A stretch of 64,000 nt of DNA from Mycobacterium sp. EPa45 (GTDB taxonomy: Bacteria > Actinomycetota > Actinomycetes > Mycobacteriales > Mycobacteriaceae), in the NCBI RefSeq assembly GCF_001021385.1, contig NZ_CP011773.1, positions 4,774,001 through 4,838,000 on the forward strand, written 5' to 3'. This document shows, one piece after another, positions 1 to 8,333 of the stretch (positions are counted from its first letter, which is position 1; the number at the start of each line of letters is the position of its first letter). The notes under the pieces are model-generated. The model was not told where the DNA came from and made no database searches. It worked only from the letters and a program-made list of their open reading frames with translations. The translations under genes and the position numbers were made by a program.

Positions 1-3000
1 CGTGTCGAGCTTCTCGATGACCGCGAATTGCGGGCCGTGGAACAGCGGGCCGGCGTACGCCTCGTCGACACTGCACGGCCACGACGACCCCGACACCTGC
101 GGAACCGCCACCTCCGGATCCGCCACAGCAGCGGTGTCCACGGTGGCGCGGTAACGCGCCCGGCCCTCAGCGTCCCGGATCGACACCGTGTACTCCGACC
201 CGGCGGGCTCGAATTCGATTGTCAACGTCTGCTTTTCACCCTCGGCGAGGGTGACACCCGATAGAACCTGGAAGTCGCGGACCACCGGGCAGGTGTCGGC
301 AATCAGGCCGCGAGCCGCACGCAGGATCGCGTCCAGCGCAATCACCACCGGCACCACCACCTTGCCGCGGACCTGATGATCGGTAAGCACCGGCAGGTCA
401 TGGGTCGACACGTTCCACTCCAGGCGGGTTGCCCGCAGGCGAGGCTCGGCCGGAGCGGCGACCACGACGGCGGTGGCCGACGAACGGCACAGCGCGTGCT
501 CGGCGAAGAACTGTGCGCCCTCGTCGATCGGAATGACACCCACGCCGCCGGCGAGGAATCGGCTCTTCAAGGTTGCGTCGACCATTCCGCCGTCCCACGG
601 TCCCCAGCCGAATGCGCGGACGACACACTCGCCGTTGCGGCGTGCGGACTCGCGAGCCGCAATGGCCTCGAGGGCAGCATTGGCCGAGGCGTAGGCCGAT
701 TGTCCGGGATTGCCGGCCCGTGCTGCGATCGAGGAGAACAGCGAGATGAAGCGCAGCTCATCGGTGGCGGTCGCATCCAGAAGTGCTTCGGCACCAACCA
801 CTTTGGTGCTGAACACCTTGACGAATCCGTCATCGTCGAGGTCTTCCAGCCGTTTGTCGGCGAGCACACCGGCGCCGTGGACGACACCGACGATCGGTCC
901 AAAATTCGCCCGGACGTCGTTGAGCACGCTGTCCAAAGCGGCACGGTCGGTGATGCTGGCCGCGAAGTAGCGCGCCGGCGTGCCCTGCCGCTCCGCCGTC
1001 GACAGGGTGGCCCGGACTTCCCGCTCGGCCAGCAGGCTTTCCGCCTGCGCGCGTGCTTGCGGCAGACTCAGTTGCTCACCGCGGGCCCGCGCCGACGCCG
1101 CCAGTGCGGTGGCGATCTCGGCGGCCGTGGTGCCGGACGGGTCGTCCGCACTCACTGCCCGCAGGGGTGTGCGACCGAGCAGTGCGAGCCGCAGGCCGTG
1201 ATGCTTGGCCAGTGCCAGAGCCGATTCCGCCGTCACGCCACGGGCACCGCCGGTGACCAGGACAACGCCACCGGGGGTGACGCTGATCGTCTCGCCCTCC
1301 CCGACCGAGGATTCGATGTCGTCGACTGCCACCAGCCGGGTGCCGTCGGCGCGTAGGGCGACCTCGATACCGCTACCGCCCTCGAGCAGCTCGGCGGCCA
1401 GCCGTTCGGCGTCAAGGCTTTCCATGTCGACGGCACGAACCGAGGCGTTCAACCATTCCCAACCGGCGGTTTTCACCAAGCTCGCGACACCGACCGGTAC
1501 ATCGCCGGCGGCGAACCGTGCCCCGGTCGACTGAACGGTGACGAAGAGCCGGGTCGCGGCGGTGCTCCTTGCGACACTGCGCGCCGCGTGGAATGCACGC
1601 AGGTGCATCGCGACGCAGTCTTCGGGTGTGCGAGCCGCCCCCAGCGGGGCCAGGCTGATGACGGCGCCTGCCTCCGCAGGTACCTCGTCGACCACGTGCG
1701 CGTTGACGCCGCGAGCCGTCAGCGCGGCCTGGAGGGCATCGGCGAAGGCGGGATCCTCCCGGGTGATGAGCACGACTCCGTCGCGCAGGCCGGCCATCGC
1801 AAGGCCAGTGGGCGGTGCGGCGCGAAGCTCGGCTTCGGTGCAGGACAGCCCGACCGGAGCGGACGACGACGCACCAACCTGCGGTGCCGCCGTGGGCTGT
1901 TCGGTGCGGCCACCGGAGGCGAATCCGGAGACGGTGTCGACGACGTCTTGCAGGGTGCGCAGGTTCGCCAGCTCGGACGCCGGGATCTCCGGAGCACCCG
2001 GGAACTTCGCCTGCAACGCCGCGAGGATCTCGACCTGCTTGATCGAATCGATCCCCAGCTCGGCCTCCATCTCCATGCCCAACCCGAGCATGTCCACCGG
2101 ATAACCCGTCTTCTCCGAAACAATCGACAGCACAACATCACCGGCATCGAGCGCAGGCGCGGCAGCAACCACCACGGTAGCGACCGGTGCAGGGGCGGCG
2201 AACCCAGACACGGTATCCACCACATCTTGCAGAGTGCGCAGGTTCGCCAGCTCCGAGGCCGGGATCTCCGGCGCACCCGGGAACTTCGCCTGCAACGCCG
2301 CGAGGATCTCGACCTGCTTGATCGAATCGATCCCCAGCTCGGCCTCCATCTCCATGCCCAACCCGAGCATGTCCACCGGATAACCCGTCTTCTCCGAAAC
2401 AATCGACAGCACAACATCACCGGCATCGAGCGCAGGCGCGGCAGCAACCACCACGGTAGCGACCGGTGCAGGGGCGGCGAACCCAGACACGGTATCCACC
2501 ACATCTTGCAGAGTGCGCAGGTTCGCCAGCTCCGAGGCCGGGATCTCCGGCGCACCCGGGAACTTCGCCTGCAACGCCGCGAGGATCTCGACCTGCTTGA
2601 TCGAATCGATCCCCAGCTCGGCCTCCATCTCCATGCCCAACCCGAGCATGTCCACCGGATAACCCGTCTTCTCCGAAACAATCGACAGCACAACATCACC
2701 CGCAGCCGGACCCGCACCCGAAGCAACAGCAGCAACCGCTACCGGAGCAGGCGCTGACCCCGCAAACCCGGCCATGGTATCCACCACATCCTGCAACGTC
2801 CGCAACCCGGACAACTCCGACGCCGGGAGCTCCGGAGCACCCGGGAACTTCGCCTGCAACGCCGCCAAAATCTCGACCTGCTTGATCGAATCGATCCCCA
2901 GCTCGGCCTCCATCTCCATGCCCAACCCGAGCATGTCCACCGGATAACCCGTCTTCTCCGAAACAATCGACAGCACAACATCACCCGCAGCCGGACCCGC

Positions 3001-6000
3001 ACCCGAAGCAACAGCAGCAACCGCTACCGGAGCAGGCGCTGACCCCGCAAACCCGGCCATGGTATCCACCACATCCTGCAACGTCCGCAACCCGGACAAC
3101 TCCGACGCAGGAATCTCCGGCACACCCGGGAACTTCGCCTGCAACGCCGCCAAAATCTCGACCTGCTTGATCGAATCGATCCCCAGCTCGGCCTCCATCT
3201 CCATGCCCAACCCGAGCATGTCCACCGGATAACCCGTCTTCTCCGAAACAATCGACAGCACAACATCACCGGCAGCCGGACCCGCAGACACAGCCGGCGC
3301 AGCCACCGCAACCGGAGCAGCCACCGGCGGCGCCGCCACCGGGGCGACCGGGGCGGCCGGCGGTGTGATCACCGGCGCGGCCGCAACCGCAACCGGCGCG
3401 GCCGCAACCGCAACCGGCGCGGGTGCAACCGTGACGGGAGCAGGCGCTGGCGCCAAAACCTGTTGCGGCGCAACGCTCGCCGTCACCATCGGAGTCTGCG
3501 CAACGGCCACGGGATCGCCCACGATGTGGGCCATCATTTGGGTCGACATATCCAGGAAGGCCTGGTGGCTGCGCGTCACCACATCCATGTAGCGCTGGTG
3601 CTGCTCGGCGGTCTCCTTCTGGATACTGTCGATGACACTCCAGACGTCGCCGGACAGCGGCGCTTCGATGACCTCTGCCTGCACTTCCACCTGCTGCTGA
3701 ACGGCCGGCGCCTGCTGCTGAATCACTGAGGCCTGGGCCTGCACCACCGGCGCAGGTGCCTGAACCGCAGCCGCGGGCGCGGCAGGTGCGTCCATCCGCT
3801 GGACCGCCGGGGCCGGCGCAGCCGCGGGGACACTGGCCGCTGCCGCGGCGACGGCAGGAGCCGCGACCGTGGCACTCACCCGAGTGCGCTTCGGCGTGAT
3901 CGATACCTTCCCGTCGGCGGGCGGGTACGGCTTACCGAGGTTCGCGCCACCGACCTTGACCGCATGCTTGGGCGCCGGAACGTATTTCAGCGGTTCCTCA
4001 TAGTGGTCGAACAGGGCACCGAGGTCCAGGGCCACACCGTCGGCAGCCAACGCCGCCAGTCCCCGATGCCAGCCACGCAGACCATCGGCCTTGGGGTCGT
4101 CGAGGGCCACCGCGAAGTGCGCCACGTCGCCCAGGATCTTTCCGACCAGCCCGGTCAGGACCCGGCTCGGACCAACCTCGATGAAGCGGGTGACCCCGTC
4201 GCGGGCCATCGCCTCGATCATTTCGCGGAACCGCACCACCTGCTGAACCTGGTCGCCGAGTTGCACGGCAACGTCCTCGCTGTAGACCTGCGCGGTGGCG
4301 TTCGCGTAGACCGGGAAGTTCGGCTGCCCGATCTTGAGTGTCTTGAGGTAAGCCGTCAGGGGTGCACTGCTGGCCGCGACGATCTCTGAGTGGAACGCCG
4401 AAGCCACCGGAAGGCGCACGGCCGTCCAGCCTTTCGCCTTCGCTGCGGTTTGCGCCCATGCGATATCGGTCTCGTACCCGGCCAGCACCACCTGAGTGGG
4501 TGCATTGTCATTGGCGATGACCAGCGATCCTGACGCCGGCTGGGTGGCCAGCAGCGCTCGCACATCGTCAGCGGTCGCGGTGACGGCGAGCATCGCGCCG
4601 TCCTTGCCCTGGCCCGCCTCGTTCATCAGCGTGCCGCGCATACGGGCCGTCTCGACCAGACTCTCGGTCGGTAGCACGCCGGCGGCCGCCAGCGCGGTGA
4701 CCTCACCGAAGCTATGGCCTGCCGCCGCAGTCGCACTCACGCCGAGGAGGTCGAGCAGCGCTAGCTGAGCAAGGCTGGTGGCGGCGATGGCCGGTTGCGC
4801 GTTGGCCATCGCGGTGAGTTCCTTCTTCTGCGCATCCACCGCGGCGGCGTCGAACGCCGGCTCGGGAAACACCACTGCGGGGAGGTCGGCAAGATCACCC
4901 TCGAGCCCGTCCCAGATCGCGAGCGCTTCGGGGAAGGCGAGGGCGAGGTCGCCGCCCATCCCGACGTACTGACTGCCCTGCCCGGGGAACAGGTAGGCCG
5001 TCTTGCCTTCGCGTGCCGGCCCGAAGCCGACTGCGATGTTGGCGTCCTTGAGCTCTGACGCGGTGCCACCGGCAAGTGCGGTGCTCAACCGGTCGGCCAG
5101 GGCGGCAAGCGATTCAGCGTCCGTCGCCACCAGGCCCGCGCGCGCGTGCTGCGATGCGTCGAACTCTTCGGCGGCTTCGAACGCGATACGGGCCAGGCTT
5201 TCCCCGGAGCGTGCGGCCGCCGCGATGTCGGAAGCGCGTTTGCCCAGTTCGGTTTCCGACGGTGCGCTCAGCACCACCAGTTCACTGGGCAGCGTCCGCA
5301 GCCGCTTGGCGCGGTGCTCGCCCCGGTACTCCTCCAGCGTCACGTGGAAGTTGCTGCCGCCGAATCCGAAGGAGCTGACCGACGCGCGCCGGGGCTGATC
5401 ACCCTTACGCACCCAGGGCCGGGTCTGCGAATTGACATAGAACGGCGACTCCTCCAACCCCAGTGCGGGATTGGGCCGATCCACCTTCAGCGTGCCCGGC
5501 AGGGTCGAATGCTGCAGCGCAAGAACGGCTTTGATGAGACCCGCGGCGCCTGCCGCGGCCTTGGTGTGACCGATCTGGGACTTCACCGATCCCAGTGCGA
5601 TCCGCGCCGAGTCGTCGGTGAACACCGACTTCAATCCGGCGAATTCGGCGACGTCGCCGGCCTTGGTGGCCGTGCCGTGGGCTTCGACGAGCTCGACCGT
5701 CGAGGGGTCGTAGCCGGCACGCTCGTATGCTCGCCGCAGTGCCTTGGCTTGTCCTTCGGAACGCGGTGCATAGACGCTCGACGCGCGCCCGTCCGATGAG
5801 GAGCCCAGGCCGCGGATGACCGCGTGGATCTGGTCTCCGTCACGCTCGGCGTCAGCCAGGCGCTTGAGGGCCACCATGCCGACGCCCTCACCGATGATCG
5901 TGCCGTCCGCGCCGTCGGAGAACGGCCGACAGTCACCGGTCGCCGAGAATGCCGGCGTCTTGGAGAAGCACATGTACATCATCACGTCGTTGAGTGCGTC

Positions 6001-6714
6001 GACGCCGCCCGTCAGCACCACGTCCGACTCGTGCAGGTACAACCGGTGCAGCGCCGACTGCAGCGCGGAAAGCGAACTCGCGCAGGCGGCGTCGGTGACG
6101 AAGTTGGCGCCGCCCAGGTTGAGGCGGTTGGCGACACGACCGGCGATGACGTTGCCGAGCAGACCCGGGAACGTGCTTTCCTGCCACGGCACATAGTGAT
6201 CGGCGATGTCCTGGCAGATCTCATCGGCTTCGCTTTCCGACAAGCCGTTCTCCAGCAGGGCTTTACGCCAGATCGGCCGCTGCATCCGAGAGCCCATCTG
6301 CACCACGAGCTCGGTCGTCGAGGCGACCCCGAGCACCACATCCACCCGGTCCAGATCGACCTCGGCGCCGCTGCCCTGCACCACGTCGAGCAGCTGCTTG
6401 GCCGCAACCAGAGCGAGGATCTGCCCGGTGTCCGTCGACGGCAGGGCGTTGGGCGGCAGGCCGAATTTCACCGGATCAAAGCTCACCGGGTCGATGAAAC
6501 CGCCGCGCTTGCAGTAGGTGCGGTCCGGTGTCTTCGGATCGGCGTCGTAGTAGTCCTCGATCAGCCAGTGCGAGGGCGGGACATCGCCGATGGCGTCGCG
6601 TCCGGTGGTGATGGTGCGCCAGAAGCCGTCGAGCCCAGACTCACCCGGATAGATCGCCGACATGGCGACCACCGCGATAGGAGTTGCAGTGGGCTGGTGC
6701 GTGTTGTCAGTCAA
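1..6714 (-). CDS. PfaA-like PUFA-synthase-type polyketide synthase (KS-AT-5xACP-KR-DH), 3' end cut by window edge
   Basis: Iterative fatty-acid/polyketide synthase of the PfaA type; it would extend acyl chains on its own ACPs in the cytoplasm. Read from TTG at 6714, eight bases after the PfaD-like stop with an AAGGG ribosome site in between. The first internal ATG (6663) would remove the start of the KS fold (PIAVVAMSAIYPG). Domains by residue: KS about 11-440 with active Cys211 (DAACASS) and His346/His383 (EAHGT, GHTKAAAG); AT with GHSFG nucleophile Ser668; Ala/Pro-rich linker about 940-1140; five ACPs with phosphopantetheine serines 1181, 1276, 1371, 1464 and 1557 (DSIKQ); KR with TGGARG and Tyr2008; then the start of a hot-dog DH. 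The KS sequence NDVMMYMCFSKTPAFS is characteristic of PfaA proteins. The stop lies left of the window. The product is unknown. A PfaA-like family assignment is firm; a PUFA product is inference. Confidence 0.9.
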   Translation of the reverse strand, partial: MTDNTHQPTATPIAVVAMSAIYPGESGLDGFWRTITTGRDAIGDVPPSHWLIEDYYDADPKTPDRTYCKRGGFIDPVSFDPVKFGLPPNALPSTDTGQILALVAAKQLLDVVQGSGAEVDLDRVDVVLGVASTTELVVQMGSRMQRPIWRKALLENGLSESEADEICQDIADHYVPWQESTFPGLLGNVIAGRVANRLNLGGANFVTDAACASSLSALQSALHRLYLHESDVVLTGGVDALNDVMMYMCFSKTPAFSATGDCRPFSDGADGTIIGEGVGMVALKRLADAERDGDQIHAVIRGLGSSSDGRASSVYAPRSEGQAKALRRAYERAGYDPSTVELVEAHGTATKAGDVAEFAGLKSVFTDDSARIALGSVKSQIGHTKAAAGAAGLIKAVLALQHSTLPGTLKVDRPNPALGLEESPFYVNSQTRPWVRKGDQPRRASVSSFGFGGSNFHVTLEEYRGEHRAKRLRTLPSELVVLSAPSETELGKRASDIAAAARSGESLARIAFEAAEEFDASQHARAGLVATDAESLAALADRLSTALAGGTASELKDANIAVGFGPAREGKTAYLFPGQGSQYVGMGGDLALAFPEALAIWDGLEGDLADLPAVVFPEPAFDAAAVDAQKKELTAMANAQPAIAATSLAQLALLDLLGVSATAAAGHSFGEVTALAAAGVLPTESLVETARMRGTLMNEAGQGKDGAMLAVTATADDVRALLATQPASGSLVIANDNAPTQVVLAGYETDIAWAQTAAKAKGWTAVRLPVASAFHSEIVAASSAPLTAYLKTLKIGQPNFPVYANATAQVYSEDVAVQLGDQVQQVVRFREMIEAMARDGVTRFIEVGPSRVLTGLVGKILGDVAHFAVALDDPKADGLRGWHRGLAALAADGVALDLGALFDHYEEPLKYVPAPKHAVKVGGANLGKPYPPADGKVSITPKRTRVSATVAAPAVAAAAASVPAAAPAPAVQRMDAPAAPAAAVQAPAPVVQAQASVIQQQAPAVQQQVEVQAEVIEAPLSGDVWSVIDSIQKETAEQHQRYMDVVTRSHQAFLDMSTQMMAHIVGDPVAVAQTPMVTASVAPQQVLAPAPAPVTVAPAPVAVAAAPVAVAAAPVITPPAAPVAPVAAPPVAAPVAVAAPAVSAGPAAGDVVLSIVSEKTGYPVDMLGLGMEMEAELGIDSIKQVEILAALQAKFPGVPEIPASELSGLRTLQDVVDTMAGFAGSAPAPVAVAAVASGAGPAAGDVVLSIVSEKTGYPVDMLGLGMEMEAELGIDSIKQVEILAALQAKFPGAPELPASELSGLRTLQDVVDTMAGFAGSAPAPVAVAAVASGAGPAAGDVVLSIVSEKTGYPVDMLGLGMEMEAELGIDSIKQVEILAALQAKFPGAPEIPASELANLRTLQDVVDTVSGFAAPAPVATVVVAAAPALDAGDVVLSIVSEKTGYPVDMLGLGMEMEAELGIDSIKQVEILAALQAKFPGAPEIPASELANLRTLQDVVDTVSGFAAPAPVATVVVAAAPALDAGDVVLSIVSEKTGYPVDMLGLGMEMEAELGIDSIKQVEILAALQAKFPGAPEIPASELANLRTLQDVVDTVSGFASGGRTEQPTAAPQVGASSSAPVGLSCTEAELRAAPPTGLAMAGLRDGVVLITREDPAFADALQAALTARGVNAHVVDEVPAEAGAVISLAPLGAARTPEDCVAMHLRAFHAARSVARSTAATRLFVTVQSTGARFAAGDVPVGVASLVKTAGWEWLNASVRAVDMESLDAERLAAELLEGGSGIEVALRADGTRLVAVDDIESSVGEGETISVTPGGVVLVTGGARGVTAESALALAKHHGLRLALLGRTPLRAVSADDPSGTTAAEIATALAASARARGEQLSLPQARAQAESLLAEREVRATLSTAERQGTPARYFAASITDRAALDSVLNDVRANFGPIVGVVHGAGVLADKRLEDLDDDGFVKVFSTKVVGAEALLDATATDELRFISLFSSIAARAGNPGQSAYASANAALEAIAARESARRNGECVVRAFGWGPWDGGMVDATLKSRFLAGGVGVIPIDEGAQFFAEHALCRSSATAVVVAAPAEPRLRATRLEWNVSTHDLPVLTDHQVRGKVVVPVVIALDAILRAARGLIADTCPVVRDFQVLSGVTLAEGEKQTLTIEFEPAGSEYTVSIRDAEGRARYRATVDTAAVADPEVAVPQVSGSSWPCSVDEAYAGPLFHGPQFAVIEKLDT
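2101..3228 (-). repeat. Tandem ACP-coding repeats, 279/285-bp units
   Basis: Five ACP modules are encoded in tandem, with serine codons at 2044, 2323, 2602, 2887 and 3172. Units 2101-2379 and 2380-2658 (279 bp each) are base-for-base identical. Units 2659-2943 and 2944-3228 (285 bp) differ at only a few positions. The module below 2101 is a more diverged fifth copy. Near-perfect DNA identity, not only protein similarity, points to recent unequal recombination or gene conversion. Confidence 0.95.
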
Positions 6715-6722
6715 GATAACCC

Positions 6723-8333
6723 TTATCCGAGAGGACGTGGACGAAAATCAAAGGAGGCAGCGGGCATCGCGACACCCGCAGCACGCAATTGCCCGGCACG
6801 GGTCACAGTCGCGGCTCCTTCGAGCAGGTTGAGCGCGATCTGGCGAACCGTGCGCGCCTCCACGGGTTCGAGGAAACTTCCCCGAACCCATTGGTTGAAG
6901 GCCCCCATCGCAGGCCCACACCAAATCTGGTAATCGCCGCGGCGAGCGGTATTGCCGTCGCGTGCCCATTGCGAACCCGTGAACAGGTACCACCGGAACA
7001 CCAGCGCCATGCGATGTTTCGGATCGGCCGCCGCGCGTTCCACCTGACGCGGGTCGCTGTTGGCGAAGAACGCCTCGGTGTCCGCCCAGATATCGGCCAC
7101 GCTGCGGCCGAGCACCGTCGTCTCGAGGTTCTTCAGCTCCTCCGGCGGAGCTTCCTCGAGCGAGGAGTAGCGCCGATAGAAGTCGGCCAGCCGGTGACCC
7201 CGCTGGGCGAACATCGTGCCGCGCTTGAGAACCTGCACGGTCACGCCCATCTCGAACATGTCCGCCGCCGGTGCCATCGCCACATCGGTCGACTCGGCCA
7301 ACGCCAACAGGGTCCGGGCATCGGGTGACAACCCGCTTTCCACCGCCGACTGGTTCACCGAGCCGGTCAGTACATACGCGGCGCCGGCGGCGAATGCGGC
7401 CGCAACGGCGGCGGGGGTGCCGAGTCCGCCCGCCGCACCCACTCGAGGCAGAACCGAGTAGCCGTAGGCGGCCGCAATCTCGTCGCGCAGGCTGATCAAC
7501 CGCGGGAGAAGAACGGTCAGCGCGCGGTTGTCGGTATGGCCCCCCGAATCCGCCTCAGCGGTGATGTCTTCGGCGATCGGGATGCCGCTGGCCAGGGCGG
7601 CCTCTTCCGGTGTCAGGCGGCCCTCGGCGACCAGCGCGCTCAGCATTGCGTCAGGAGCCGGCGAGAGGAATTGCCGGGCGACCTCGTCGCGGGACACCTT
7701 GGCGAAGATGTGGCCGGCCCGGACGATCTGTCCGTTTGCATCGCGATGCAAACCCTTCGCGGCGTACAAGACAACCGCCGGCGTGAGACGCATGAATGCC
7801 GACGCGGAAACGTAGCGGACACCGAGGCGGTGGAACAGATCGACCGTCGCCAGTTCCACCCCGTCGCTTTGAACGTTGTGAATCAGGTTGGCACCCCAGC
7901 CGCTGGAGTTCGGTCCGAGCGCGGCCTGGATTTCGCGAACCCCCGCCTCGACGGTGGCCAGATCCAGGCCGGCGCTTCCGTAGAACGCCATCACGCCGGC
8001 GCGCACACCTTCAACGGTCATCTGCGGCGTCGCGATACCGCGGGCCATCTCACCGATCACATAGGGGAACCGCACGCGATGCGTCGCGGTGAAACTGCGG
8101 TCGCCGAGCCACTCGGGATAGATCGGTGGCAGAACCGCAAGGATGTCCTGGCGCAGGAGCTCCGGCGTCAGCACGCCCGCACCGTCGAGGACCACAGTGC
8201 GCGGCCCGTAGGCCGAGCTTACGACGGCGACCGGGCGCCGGATTGCGGCGAGAGCCTCGTTGACATCCGACCCATCAAGCAACGCCGGAGAGGCGCCATT
8301 GGTCGGATGAGAGTTAGCCAACGTCGCCTGCAT
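6723..8333 (-). CDS. PfaD-family FMN-dependent enoyl reductase
   Basis: Trans-acting enoyl reductase of the PfaD/2-nitropropane-dioxygenase-like TIM-barrel family (536 aa), which reduces enoyl intermediates carried by PUFA-type and some trans-AT synthases using FMN. Seen in the sequence: the family motif TAEADSGGHTDNR (about residues 258-270), a Gly-rich flavin-binding stretch GAAGGLGTPAAV, and the C-terminal CGPAMGAFNQWVRGSFL block typical of PfaD. It is the first gene of a pair with the PfaA-like synthase, whose TTG start follows the TAA stop within eight bases, so the two are almost certainly co-transcribed and coupled. No Shine-Dalgarno precedes the ATG; a TAGAGT -10 element eight bases upstream suggests leaderless initiation. 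Confidence 0.92.
   Translation of the reverse strand: MQATLANSHPTNGASPALLDGSDVNEALAAIRRPVAVVSSAYGPRTVVLDGAGVLTPELLRQDILAVLPPIYPEWLGDRSFTATHRVRFPYVIGEMARGIATPQMTVEGVRAGVMAFYGSAGLDLATVEAGVREIQAALGPNSSGWGANLIHNVQSDGVELATVDLFHRLGVRYVSASAFMRLTPAVVLYAAKGLHRDANGQIVRAGHIFAKVSRDEVARQFLSPAPDAMLSALVAEGRLTPEEAALASGIPIAEDITAEADSGGHTDNRALTVLLPRLISLRDEIAAAYGYSVLPRVGAAGGLGTPAAVAAAFAAGAAYVLTGSVNQSAVESGLSPDARTLLALAESTDVAMAPAADMFEMGVTVQVLKRGTMFAQRGHRLADFYRRYSSLEEAPPEELKNLETTVLGRSVADIWADTEAFFANSDPRQVERAAADPKHRMALVFRWYLFTGSQWARDGNTARRGDYQIWCGPAMGAFNQWVRGSFLEPVEARTVRQIALNLLEGAATVTRAGQLRAAGVAMPAASFDFRPRPLG

Follow-up and report, generated by a model that had tools for sequence, protein, structure and literature searches.

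The pfa operon of Mycobacterium sp. EPa45, which encodes a polyunsaturated fatty acid (PUFA) synthase, forms the right end of a cluster of 43 genes and ~92 kb (C1:4690117-4782333). Its first two genes, pfaD and pfaA, lie at the left end of the stretch of 64,000 nucleotides analysed here (the window, C1:4774001-4838000 of a single-contig 6.18 Mb genome; a window position is the genome position minus 4774000). The operon has the gene content of a PUFA synthase with intact catalytic residues, its PfaA belongs to the clade of PfaA proteins, and its linkage to the remainder of the cluster is conserved among mycobacteria. These observations suggest that the operon probably makes a polyunsaturated acyl chain for a glycopeptidolipid-like surface lipid, which would be produced by the cluster as a whole.

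The original prediction described a PfaD-like enoyl reductase followed by a PfaA-like synthase, and family scores and Pfam domains bear this out. The pfaD gene (window 6723..8333, C1:4780723-4782333, minus strand) encodes 536 residues and scores 607.8 bits against TIGR02814 (cut-off 449.25). Its product matches structurally solved PfaD proteins of PUFA synthases with 475.7 (PDB 6lkc), 466.3 (4yx6), 417.4 and 405.7 bits, and scores lower against DfnA (381.6 bits) and MlnA (293.6 bits). The pfaA gene (window 1..6714, C1:4773650-4780714, or L026:1650-8714, minus strand) encodes 2354 residues and scores 1527.4 bits against TIGR02813 (cut-off 1010.1). It starts with a TTG codon at window position 6714, 8 bases past the pfaD stop, and its 3' end lies 351 bp beyond the left window edge, which places 116 C-terminal residues outside the window.

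According to Pfam, PfaA is composed of a ketosynthase (KS), an acyltransferase (AT), five acyl carrier proteins (ACP), a ketoreductase (KR) and a dehydratase (DH), in this order, all on the minus strand. The KS with its C-terminal extension (residues 11-411, window 5188..6684; PF00109, PF02801 and PF16197) retains Cys211, His346 and His383, as judged from its motifs. The malonyl-type AT (residues 574-857, window 4144..4995; PF00698, TIGR00128) carries GHSFG and SAFH motifs and is predicted to be specific for malonyl. The tandem ACPs match PF00550 in five stretches (window 1933..3264, the outer limits being estimated from motif positions), with the motif LGIDSI at residues 1177, 1272, 1367, 1460 and 1553. 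ACP 4 is identical to ACP 5, and ACPs 2 and 3 show 97% identity over the 100 residues compared. The KR follows (residues 1816-2041, window 592..1269; PF08659), and a DH of the polyketide synthase (PKS) type with the motif HxxxGxxxxP begins at residue 2095 (PF21089) and occupies window 1..432 before running on to the left of the window.

The remainder of the system had been expected to the left of the window. Extension of the contig in that direction reveals pfaC (C1:4767183-4773653, minus strand), the product of which has the order KS, chain length factor (CLF), AT, DH, DH. The PfaC partner is thus present, while neither a separate pfaB gene in the operon, where the AT sits inside pfaC, nor a dedicated phosphopantetheinyl transferase in the cluster accompanies it; both PF01648 matches of the genome lie outside the cluster. 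The KS of PfaC has its active set of one cysteine and two histidines, and Glu582 replaces the cysteine in the CLF. Pfam matches the DH region in three stretches, which were read as two DHs, each a FabA-like hotdog pair, with His1665 and His2048. Conservation of these residues was counted in 114 homologues of 1950-2350 residues among the best 120 of 5735 matches, of which 63 stand in ranks 1 to 66, treated here as mycobacterial (many of them unnamed), and 51 are others. KS His308 and His343, CLF Glu582, AT Ser908 and His1024, and DH His1665 and His2048 are invariant, and KS Cys173 is kept in 113 of the 114, the remaining sequence having a gap. The first hotdog of the second DH is variable. The AT within PfaC contains Ser908 and His1024, and the PfaB model TIGR02816 matches it weakly (48.2 bits, cut-off 144.3). 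PfaB is the terminal acyltransferase according to the available part of PMC12895367. Judged by its domains and motifs, the pfaD-pfaA-pfaC set is predicted to be complete for a PUFA-type synthase, with its catalytic residues intact.

The operon continues into genes for dTDP-rhamnose synthesis. Its order is pfaD-pfaA-pfaC-rmlA-rmlB-rmlCD, all on the minus strand, and overlaps of 4 bases (pfaA-pfaC), 4 bases (pfaC-rmlA) and 1 base (rmlA-rmlB) join consecutive genes. Both rmlA (C1:4766317-4767186; 464.2 bits, cut-off 360.65) and rmlB (C1:4765319-4766317; 459.1 bits, cut-off 365.1) exceed their family cut-offs. The rmlC-rmlD fusion (longest frame C1:4763863-4765530) matches RmlD with 218.0 bits and RmlC with 92.3 bits, both below cut-off, and its true start is probably ~76 codons downstream of the start of the longest frame.

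A tree of 44 chosen KS rows, which holds no PfaA row of Shewanella or Moritella, places the KS of PfaA within the PfaA clade (support 100/99), together with Aureispira marina PfaA, Persicobacter, Flammeovirga and others, and apart from the single enediyne PKSE row. For this tree at most four hit groups were taken per source, and in six cases (G322, G171, G294, G082, G084 and L032) the second hit, that of PfaC, was left out for having fewer than 330 residues. Long branches in some PKS rows make the outermost groupings uncertain. A KS of the enediyne or phenolic-lipid type was rejected on this placement. As the KS falls in the Pfa clade and a PfaC partner with DHs is present, neither of the outcomes named in the original prediction as adverse to it occurred. 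The nearest neighbours of the KS are those of Azospirillum and Embleya (96/96), and the KS of a second mycobacterial type is sister to the group of all three (98/94). Plasmid AZO_p1 of Azospirillum lipoferum 4B (L149) carries a pfa operon of the order D-A-C, the PfaD of which is 57% and the PfaC 47-56% identical to those of the window type. The presence of such an operon on an alphaproteobacterial plasmid hints at a transfer between phyla.

The cluster to the left of the operon contains what may be the machinery for a glycolipopeptide. It begins with a fatty acyl-AMP ligase (FAAL; C1:4690117-4691958, minus strand; NF004509, 916.7 bits), which is followed on the plus strand by a PKS of the order KS-AT-DH-enoyl reductase-KR-ACP (C1:4692157-4698507), a protein resembling isoprenylcysteine carboxyl methyltransferase (ICMT; C1:4698541-4699215) and a PF10118 protein (C1:4699220-4700173). 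The AT motif of this PKS, GYSMGE ... VAAHS, does not separate malonyl from methylmalonyl. Two nonribosomal peptide synthetase (NRPS) genes on the minus strand encode 5191 residues (C1:4700170-4715745) and 1551 residues (C1:4715732-4720387). In terms of condensation (C), adenylation (A), thiolation (T) and epimerization (E) domains they comprise C-A-T-E, three times C-A-T, C-A-T-E and a terminal C-T, thus five A domains; the C-terminal sequence ends in C-T, and no reductase was seen in it. Read by motif positions, the residue code of modules 1 and 5 is DFWSVGMV, which is near the threonine code DFWNIGMV. A search of the rest of the genome for an NRPS of the glycopeptidolipid type gave condensation-domain matches in frames of 1153, 2299 and 1457 residues at C1:500-515 kb and in two of 499 and 518 residues.

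A tailoring block on both strands (C1:4720816-4755551) follows the NRPS genes. The cluster encodes five glycosyltransferases of the EryCIII/GT28 type, TylF/MT24 methyltransferases, AT3-SGNH proteins, an ABC exporter, a UDP-glucose dehydrogenase, GMC oxidoreductases and Gfo/Idh/MocA proteins. At the end of the block is a sulfotransferase-like protein (C1:4754568-4755551, minus strand), which scores 27 bits, at the cut-off of 27. Between this block and the rml genes, four genes lie on the plus strand: a putative condensation-fold acyltransferase (C1:4755617-4757068), MmpS (C1:4757349-4758026) and two MmpL proteins (C1:4758023-4760905, with a longest frame of 4757933-4760905, and C1:4760906-4763854). 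The acyltransferase gene has no named family match in Pfam (to E 0.1) or NCBIfam (to E 1e-8). Its product carries an HxxxDG motif, the residues of which are conserved in 14 rows, and its structural model, of low confidence (pLDDT 58), resembles condensation domains, WS/DGAT and PapA5. On motif and modelled fold it is assigned to the PapA / WS-DGAT / condensation superfamily.

The association of these genes was examined in 120 kb stretches of five further species, a gene being counted as recurring at an identity of at least 45% over half its length. Among the 43 cluster genes, 38 recur in G009, 43 in G322, 40 in G171, 36 in G099 and 32 in G139. When the five genomes are read over 100 kb, the gene order is rearranged in places and some genes are lost: G099 and G139 have no rml, and the NRPS has one module fewer in G171, G099 and G139. 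Two flanks served as controls. The 20 kb to the right of pfaD contain 17 genes, of which 13, 16, 8, 1 and 1 recur in the same five genomes. The 20 kb to the left of the FAAL gene contain 12, of which 2, 0, 1, 0 and 0 recur, the sequence compared in those genomes reaching ~6 to 31 kb past that gene. As a single right-flank gene of 17 recurs in G099 and in G139, the cluster moves there as a unit without its right flank.

Of 396 Mycobacterium genomes sampled, 70 have a pfaD match at E 1e-100 or better. The window type is present in 41 of them (80-100% identity, two of the matches being fragments) and a second type in 30 (51-57%), G023 having both. The gene is split across several frames in G076 (C3:382459-383779) and G225 (C10:566-1884), as if by decay or misassembly. 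The surroundings of pfaD were read in 20 genomes, namely ten of the first type and nine of the second, each over 40 kb, and G031. The two MmpL genes and MmpS, in the order MmpLb-MmpLa-MmpS, the acyltransferase and a glycosyltransferase come after pfaC or rml in nine of the ten genomes of the first type. Among 30 public loci, the 14 that run on for 5 kb or more past pfaC were counted, of which 11 have MmpL and six have rmlA. The others comprise L056, with less than 5 kb, and 15 without the 3' end of pfaC by the rule of this count, eight of which carry rml and MmpL (L035, L037, L038, L040, L042, L045, L046 and L054).

By combining this information, it is possible to propose how the product might be assembled. 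The five ACPs of PfaA would carry the growing chain, while the ketosynthases of PfaA and PfaC condense malonyl units. Several double bonds would be left in the chain by the combined action of the KR, the dehydratases of both the PKS type and the FabA type, and PfaD, after which the AT of PfaC, of the PfaB type by position, may off-load the chain. The FAAL-PKS pair and the five-module NRPS would build a lipopeptide, which several methyl- and glycosyltransferases would decorate, with dTDP-rhamnose supplied by rmlABCD. Possibly, the acyl chain is joined with the glycolipopeptide by the condensation-fold acyltransferase or else by the NRPS through its terminal C-T, and MmpS with the two MmpL proteins could export the product, much as for glycopeptidolipids. 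We infer from the gene set that this product would be polyunsaturated, joined to the peptide or the sugars, rhamnosylated, possibly sulfated and located at the surface.

Several points weigh against the assignment of the polyunsaturated chain to such a glycolipopeptide. Its support comes from sequence, and chain length and double bonds are not predictable from the genes. pfaC and the NRPS genes are ~47 kb apart and are linked by synteny alone; as much of the right flank is shared in G009, G322 and G171, general synteny could explain part of this linkage. The FAAL-PKS pair could by itself supply the acyl chain of the peptide. The fold of the acyltransferase rests on the model mentioned above, with query-normalised TM-scores of 0.34-0.45 among the matches listed. 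Five of the ten genomes of the first type miss rml. The three counted public loci in which no MmpL gene lies within 10 kb of pfa come from M. simulans (one) and Gordonia (two). Finally, G150 (L090, L110) is without the stretch from inside the second MmpL gene of the export set (MmpLb) to the NRPS, which directly follows pfa-rml. In that genome a cut MmpLb is followed by a large NRPS gene, with MmpLa, MmpS and the tailoring genes missing, owing to either a deletion or an assembly join. In M. simulans FI-09026 (L032) an NRPS gene directly follows pfa, and a second NRPS gene has a terminal NAD-binding, reductase-like domain, an arrangement that appears closer to the logic of glycopeptidolipid synthesis.

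The distances between the genes and the presence of two exporter types, MmpS/MmpL and ABC, would suit a cluster with two products. One would be a rhamnosylated polyunsaturated acyl-glycolipid made by pfa, rml, MmpS/MmpL, the acyltransferase and nearby glycosyltransferases, and the other a separate FAAL-PKS-NRPS glycolipopeptide with its own glycosyltransferases, AT3 proteins and ABC exporter. We consider this rather unlikely, however, as both halves occur together in all five genomes read over 100 kb, pfa lies directly before the NRPS in M. simulans, and the published clade IV clusters, in the available part of PMC13291983, join pfa with PKS-NRPS. Alternatively, the operon might make ordinary PUFAs for phospholipids of the membrane, the situation in marine bacteria and myxobacteria, and be unrelated to the adjacent cluster. 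The enzyme set is indeed complete and canonical, and the two Gordonia loci have pfa but none of the MmpL genes of the cluster within 10 kb. Nevertheless, rmlA and rmlB overlap inside the operon, G099 and G139 retain the linkage to MmpL, glycosyltransferase and NRPS genes despite a different right flank, and PfaC lacks the AGPAT domain that myxobacterial Pfa3 carries, all of which make this reading unlikely.

Iterative type I PKSs for polyenes and enediynes share parts of the PfaA layout, and the product could be a conjugated polyene or enediyne-type chain instead of a PUFA. This is highly improbable, as the KS groups with PfaA and away from the enediyne row, which itself has a long branch, and as PfaD, the CLF and the FabA-type DHs are all present. 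The original prediction had proposed the locus as a candidate for the synthesis of phleic acids, which, like PUFA-type products, are long polyunsaturated chains. According to the available part of PMC5524727, the synthesis and transport of trehalose polyphleates involve papA3, pks, fadD23 and mmpL10, and PMC1885439 gives a table of the M. smegmatis genes. This set is not found at the pfa locus. A gene set of the trehalose polyphleate type is located far away, at C1:421747-443165, and consists of FadE-like, PapA3-like, MmpL and FAAL proteins and a PKS of 3736 residues, these names resting on layout and family and not on comparison with the M. smegmatis sequences. The two loci share the theme of long polyunsaturated acyl chains and a logic of PKS, acyltransferase and MmpL, but differ in their synthase. 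As a separate locus of this type is present, the pfa locus is not needed to explain phleates. The operon sits in a glycolipopeptide-type cluster, and the phleic-acid proposal, to which we give hardly any credence, was rejected.

The reading preferred here, a polyunsaturated chain for a glycopeptidolipid-like product, can be set beside systems already described, as far as the available parts of the cited papers go. PMC13291983 presents uncharacterised clusters of pfa, PKS, ligase, ICMT and NRPS in Mycobacterium sp. TNTM28 (fortunisiensis) and Mycolicibacterium sp. CBMA 234, and a related one in M. simulans FB-527; its clade IV clusters pair pfa with PKS-NRPS. The PfaC of EPa45 is 75% identical to that of TNTM28 (over 36% of the query), 69% to that of CBMA 234 and 68% to that of M. 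simulans. In the tree the KS of M. simulans PfaA groups with the window KS, TNTM28 and CBMA 234 being compared by PfaC identity only. Clade IV and the present cluster have in common pfa, a monomodular PKS, a CoA/AMP ligase, an ICMT-like gene between PKS and NRPS, and a TIGR01720 NRPS. The region between PKS-NRPS and pfa is of limited conservation according to the main text, which does not mention MmpL or sulfotransferase and uses "glycosyl" once, for Ottowia. In EPa45, by contrast, the stretch from the NRPS to pfa holds sugar, methyl, acyl, sulfo and export genes, of which much is conserved, and rmlABCD stands in the operon. To what that text describes, the present analysis adds the size of the cluster (~92 kb), its genes for sugars and export, the location of rmlABCD within the pfa operon, the observed conservation, and the interpretation as a glycopeptidolipid-like system. 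In the open-licence PMC literature, searched mostly as titles and the beginnings of abstracts, mycobacterial pfa-PKS-NRPS clusters were found described only in PMC13291983.

The PUFA operons of the myxobacteria Aetherobacter, Sorangium and Minicystis are arranged as pfa1(D)-pfa2(A)-pfa3(C) (PMC8436480, PMC6731297). The position of pfaD at the front, which had been taken as a departure from the usual order, is therefore not an oddity, since D-A-C with an AT-fused PfaC is the usual myxobacterial plan (PMC8436480). The EPa45 operon shares this order, the AT within the PfaC homologue and the KS-AT-ACP-KR-DH layout of the PfaA homologue. It differs in that Pfam detects no AGPAT domain at the end of PfaC, in its rml genes and in the glycolipopeptide-type cluster around it. 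In the scheme of Shulse and Allen 2011 (PMC3098273), the accessible Table 2 of which lists no Mycobacterium, type L has a 5'-terminal pfaD and a pfaBC fusion. The fused protein of type L has the order KS-CLF-DH2-AT, however, whereas that of EPa45 has KS-CLF-AT-DH2, as in type C; the system thus joins the gene order of type L with the domain order of type C. With the glycopeptidolipid locus of M. smegmatis, M. abscessus and M. chelonae (PMC1885439), the cluster shares mmpS-mmpL-mmpL, rmlA, rmlB and NRPS genes, as well as glycosyltransferases, methyltransferases and atf-type acyltransferases (Table 1 of that paper). In contrast to that locus, it has five A-domain modules and a terminal C-T in place of the Mps1/Mps2-type tripeptide-aminoalcohol assembly, a FAAL and a PKS of the size of mycocerosic acid synthase inside the cluster, and a PUFA synthase.

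The second type of pfaD-pfaA-pfaC, with a pfaD about 53% identical to that of the window, adjoins a locus resembling that for phthiocerol dimycocerosates (DIM) in five of the nine genomes of this type (G142, L095/L115; G276; G241; G163; G110). In G142, the only one scanned for families, this DIM-like locus contains a FAAL, Drr-type ABC genes, a PpsE-sized PKS, a Mas/Pks2-like PKS (NF041183, 2655 bits, over the cut-off) and a PapA5-like protein (566 bits, below the cut-off of 716). G031, which is not among the 70 pfaD-positive genomes, has a distant PfaD-like frame of 785 residues (542.7 bits) near several KS domains (L108, C1:2474876-2494875), perhaps a trans-AT PKS in a mycobacterium.

Colony form, the reception of phages and the interaction with the host are influenced by the lipids of the mycobacterial envelope, in which phleates are the main known polyunsaturated chains. 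The full Pfa set, of a kind that produces PUFAs in marine and soil bacteria, at the end of a cluster of the lipopeptide and export type suggests that some mycobacteria may wear a polyunsaturated lipid coat that has so far escaped isolation. Tentatively, and with somewhat less than even confidence, this coat could be an undescribed class of surface lipid in about a tenth of mycobacterial species, namely a glycosylated, methylated and perhaps sulfated lipopeptide with an oxygen-independently made PUFA chain, which would replace glycopeptidolipids. If so, PUFA synthases would have been recruited twice for outer-membrane lipids of mycobacteria, once here and once, as the second type, beside the DIM-like locus. 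A PUFA synthase wired into a cluster for a glycolipopeptide and its MmpL export would then offer a genetically accessible new class of lipid, and oxygen-independent PUFA synthesis would serve specialised lipids of the outer membrane.

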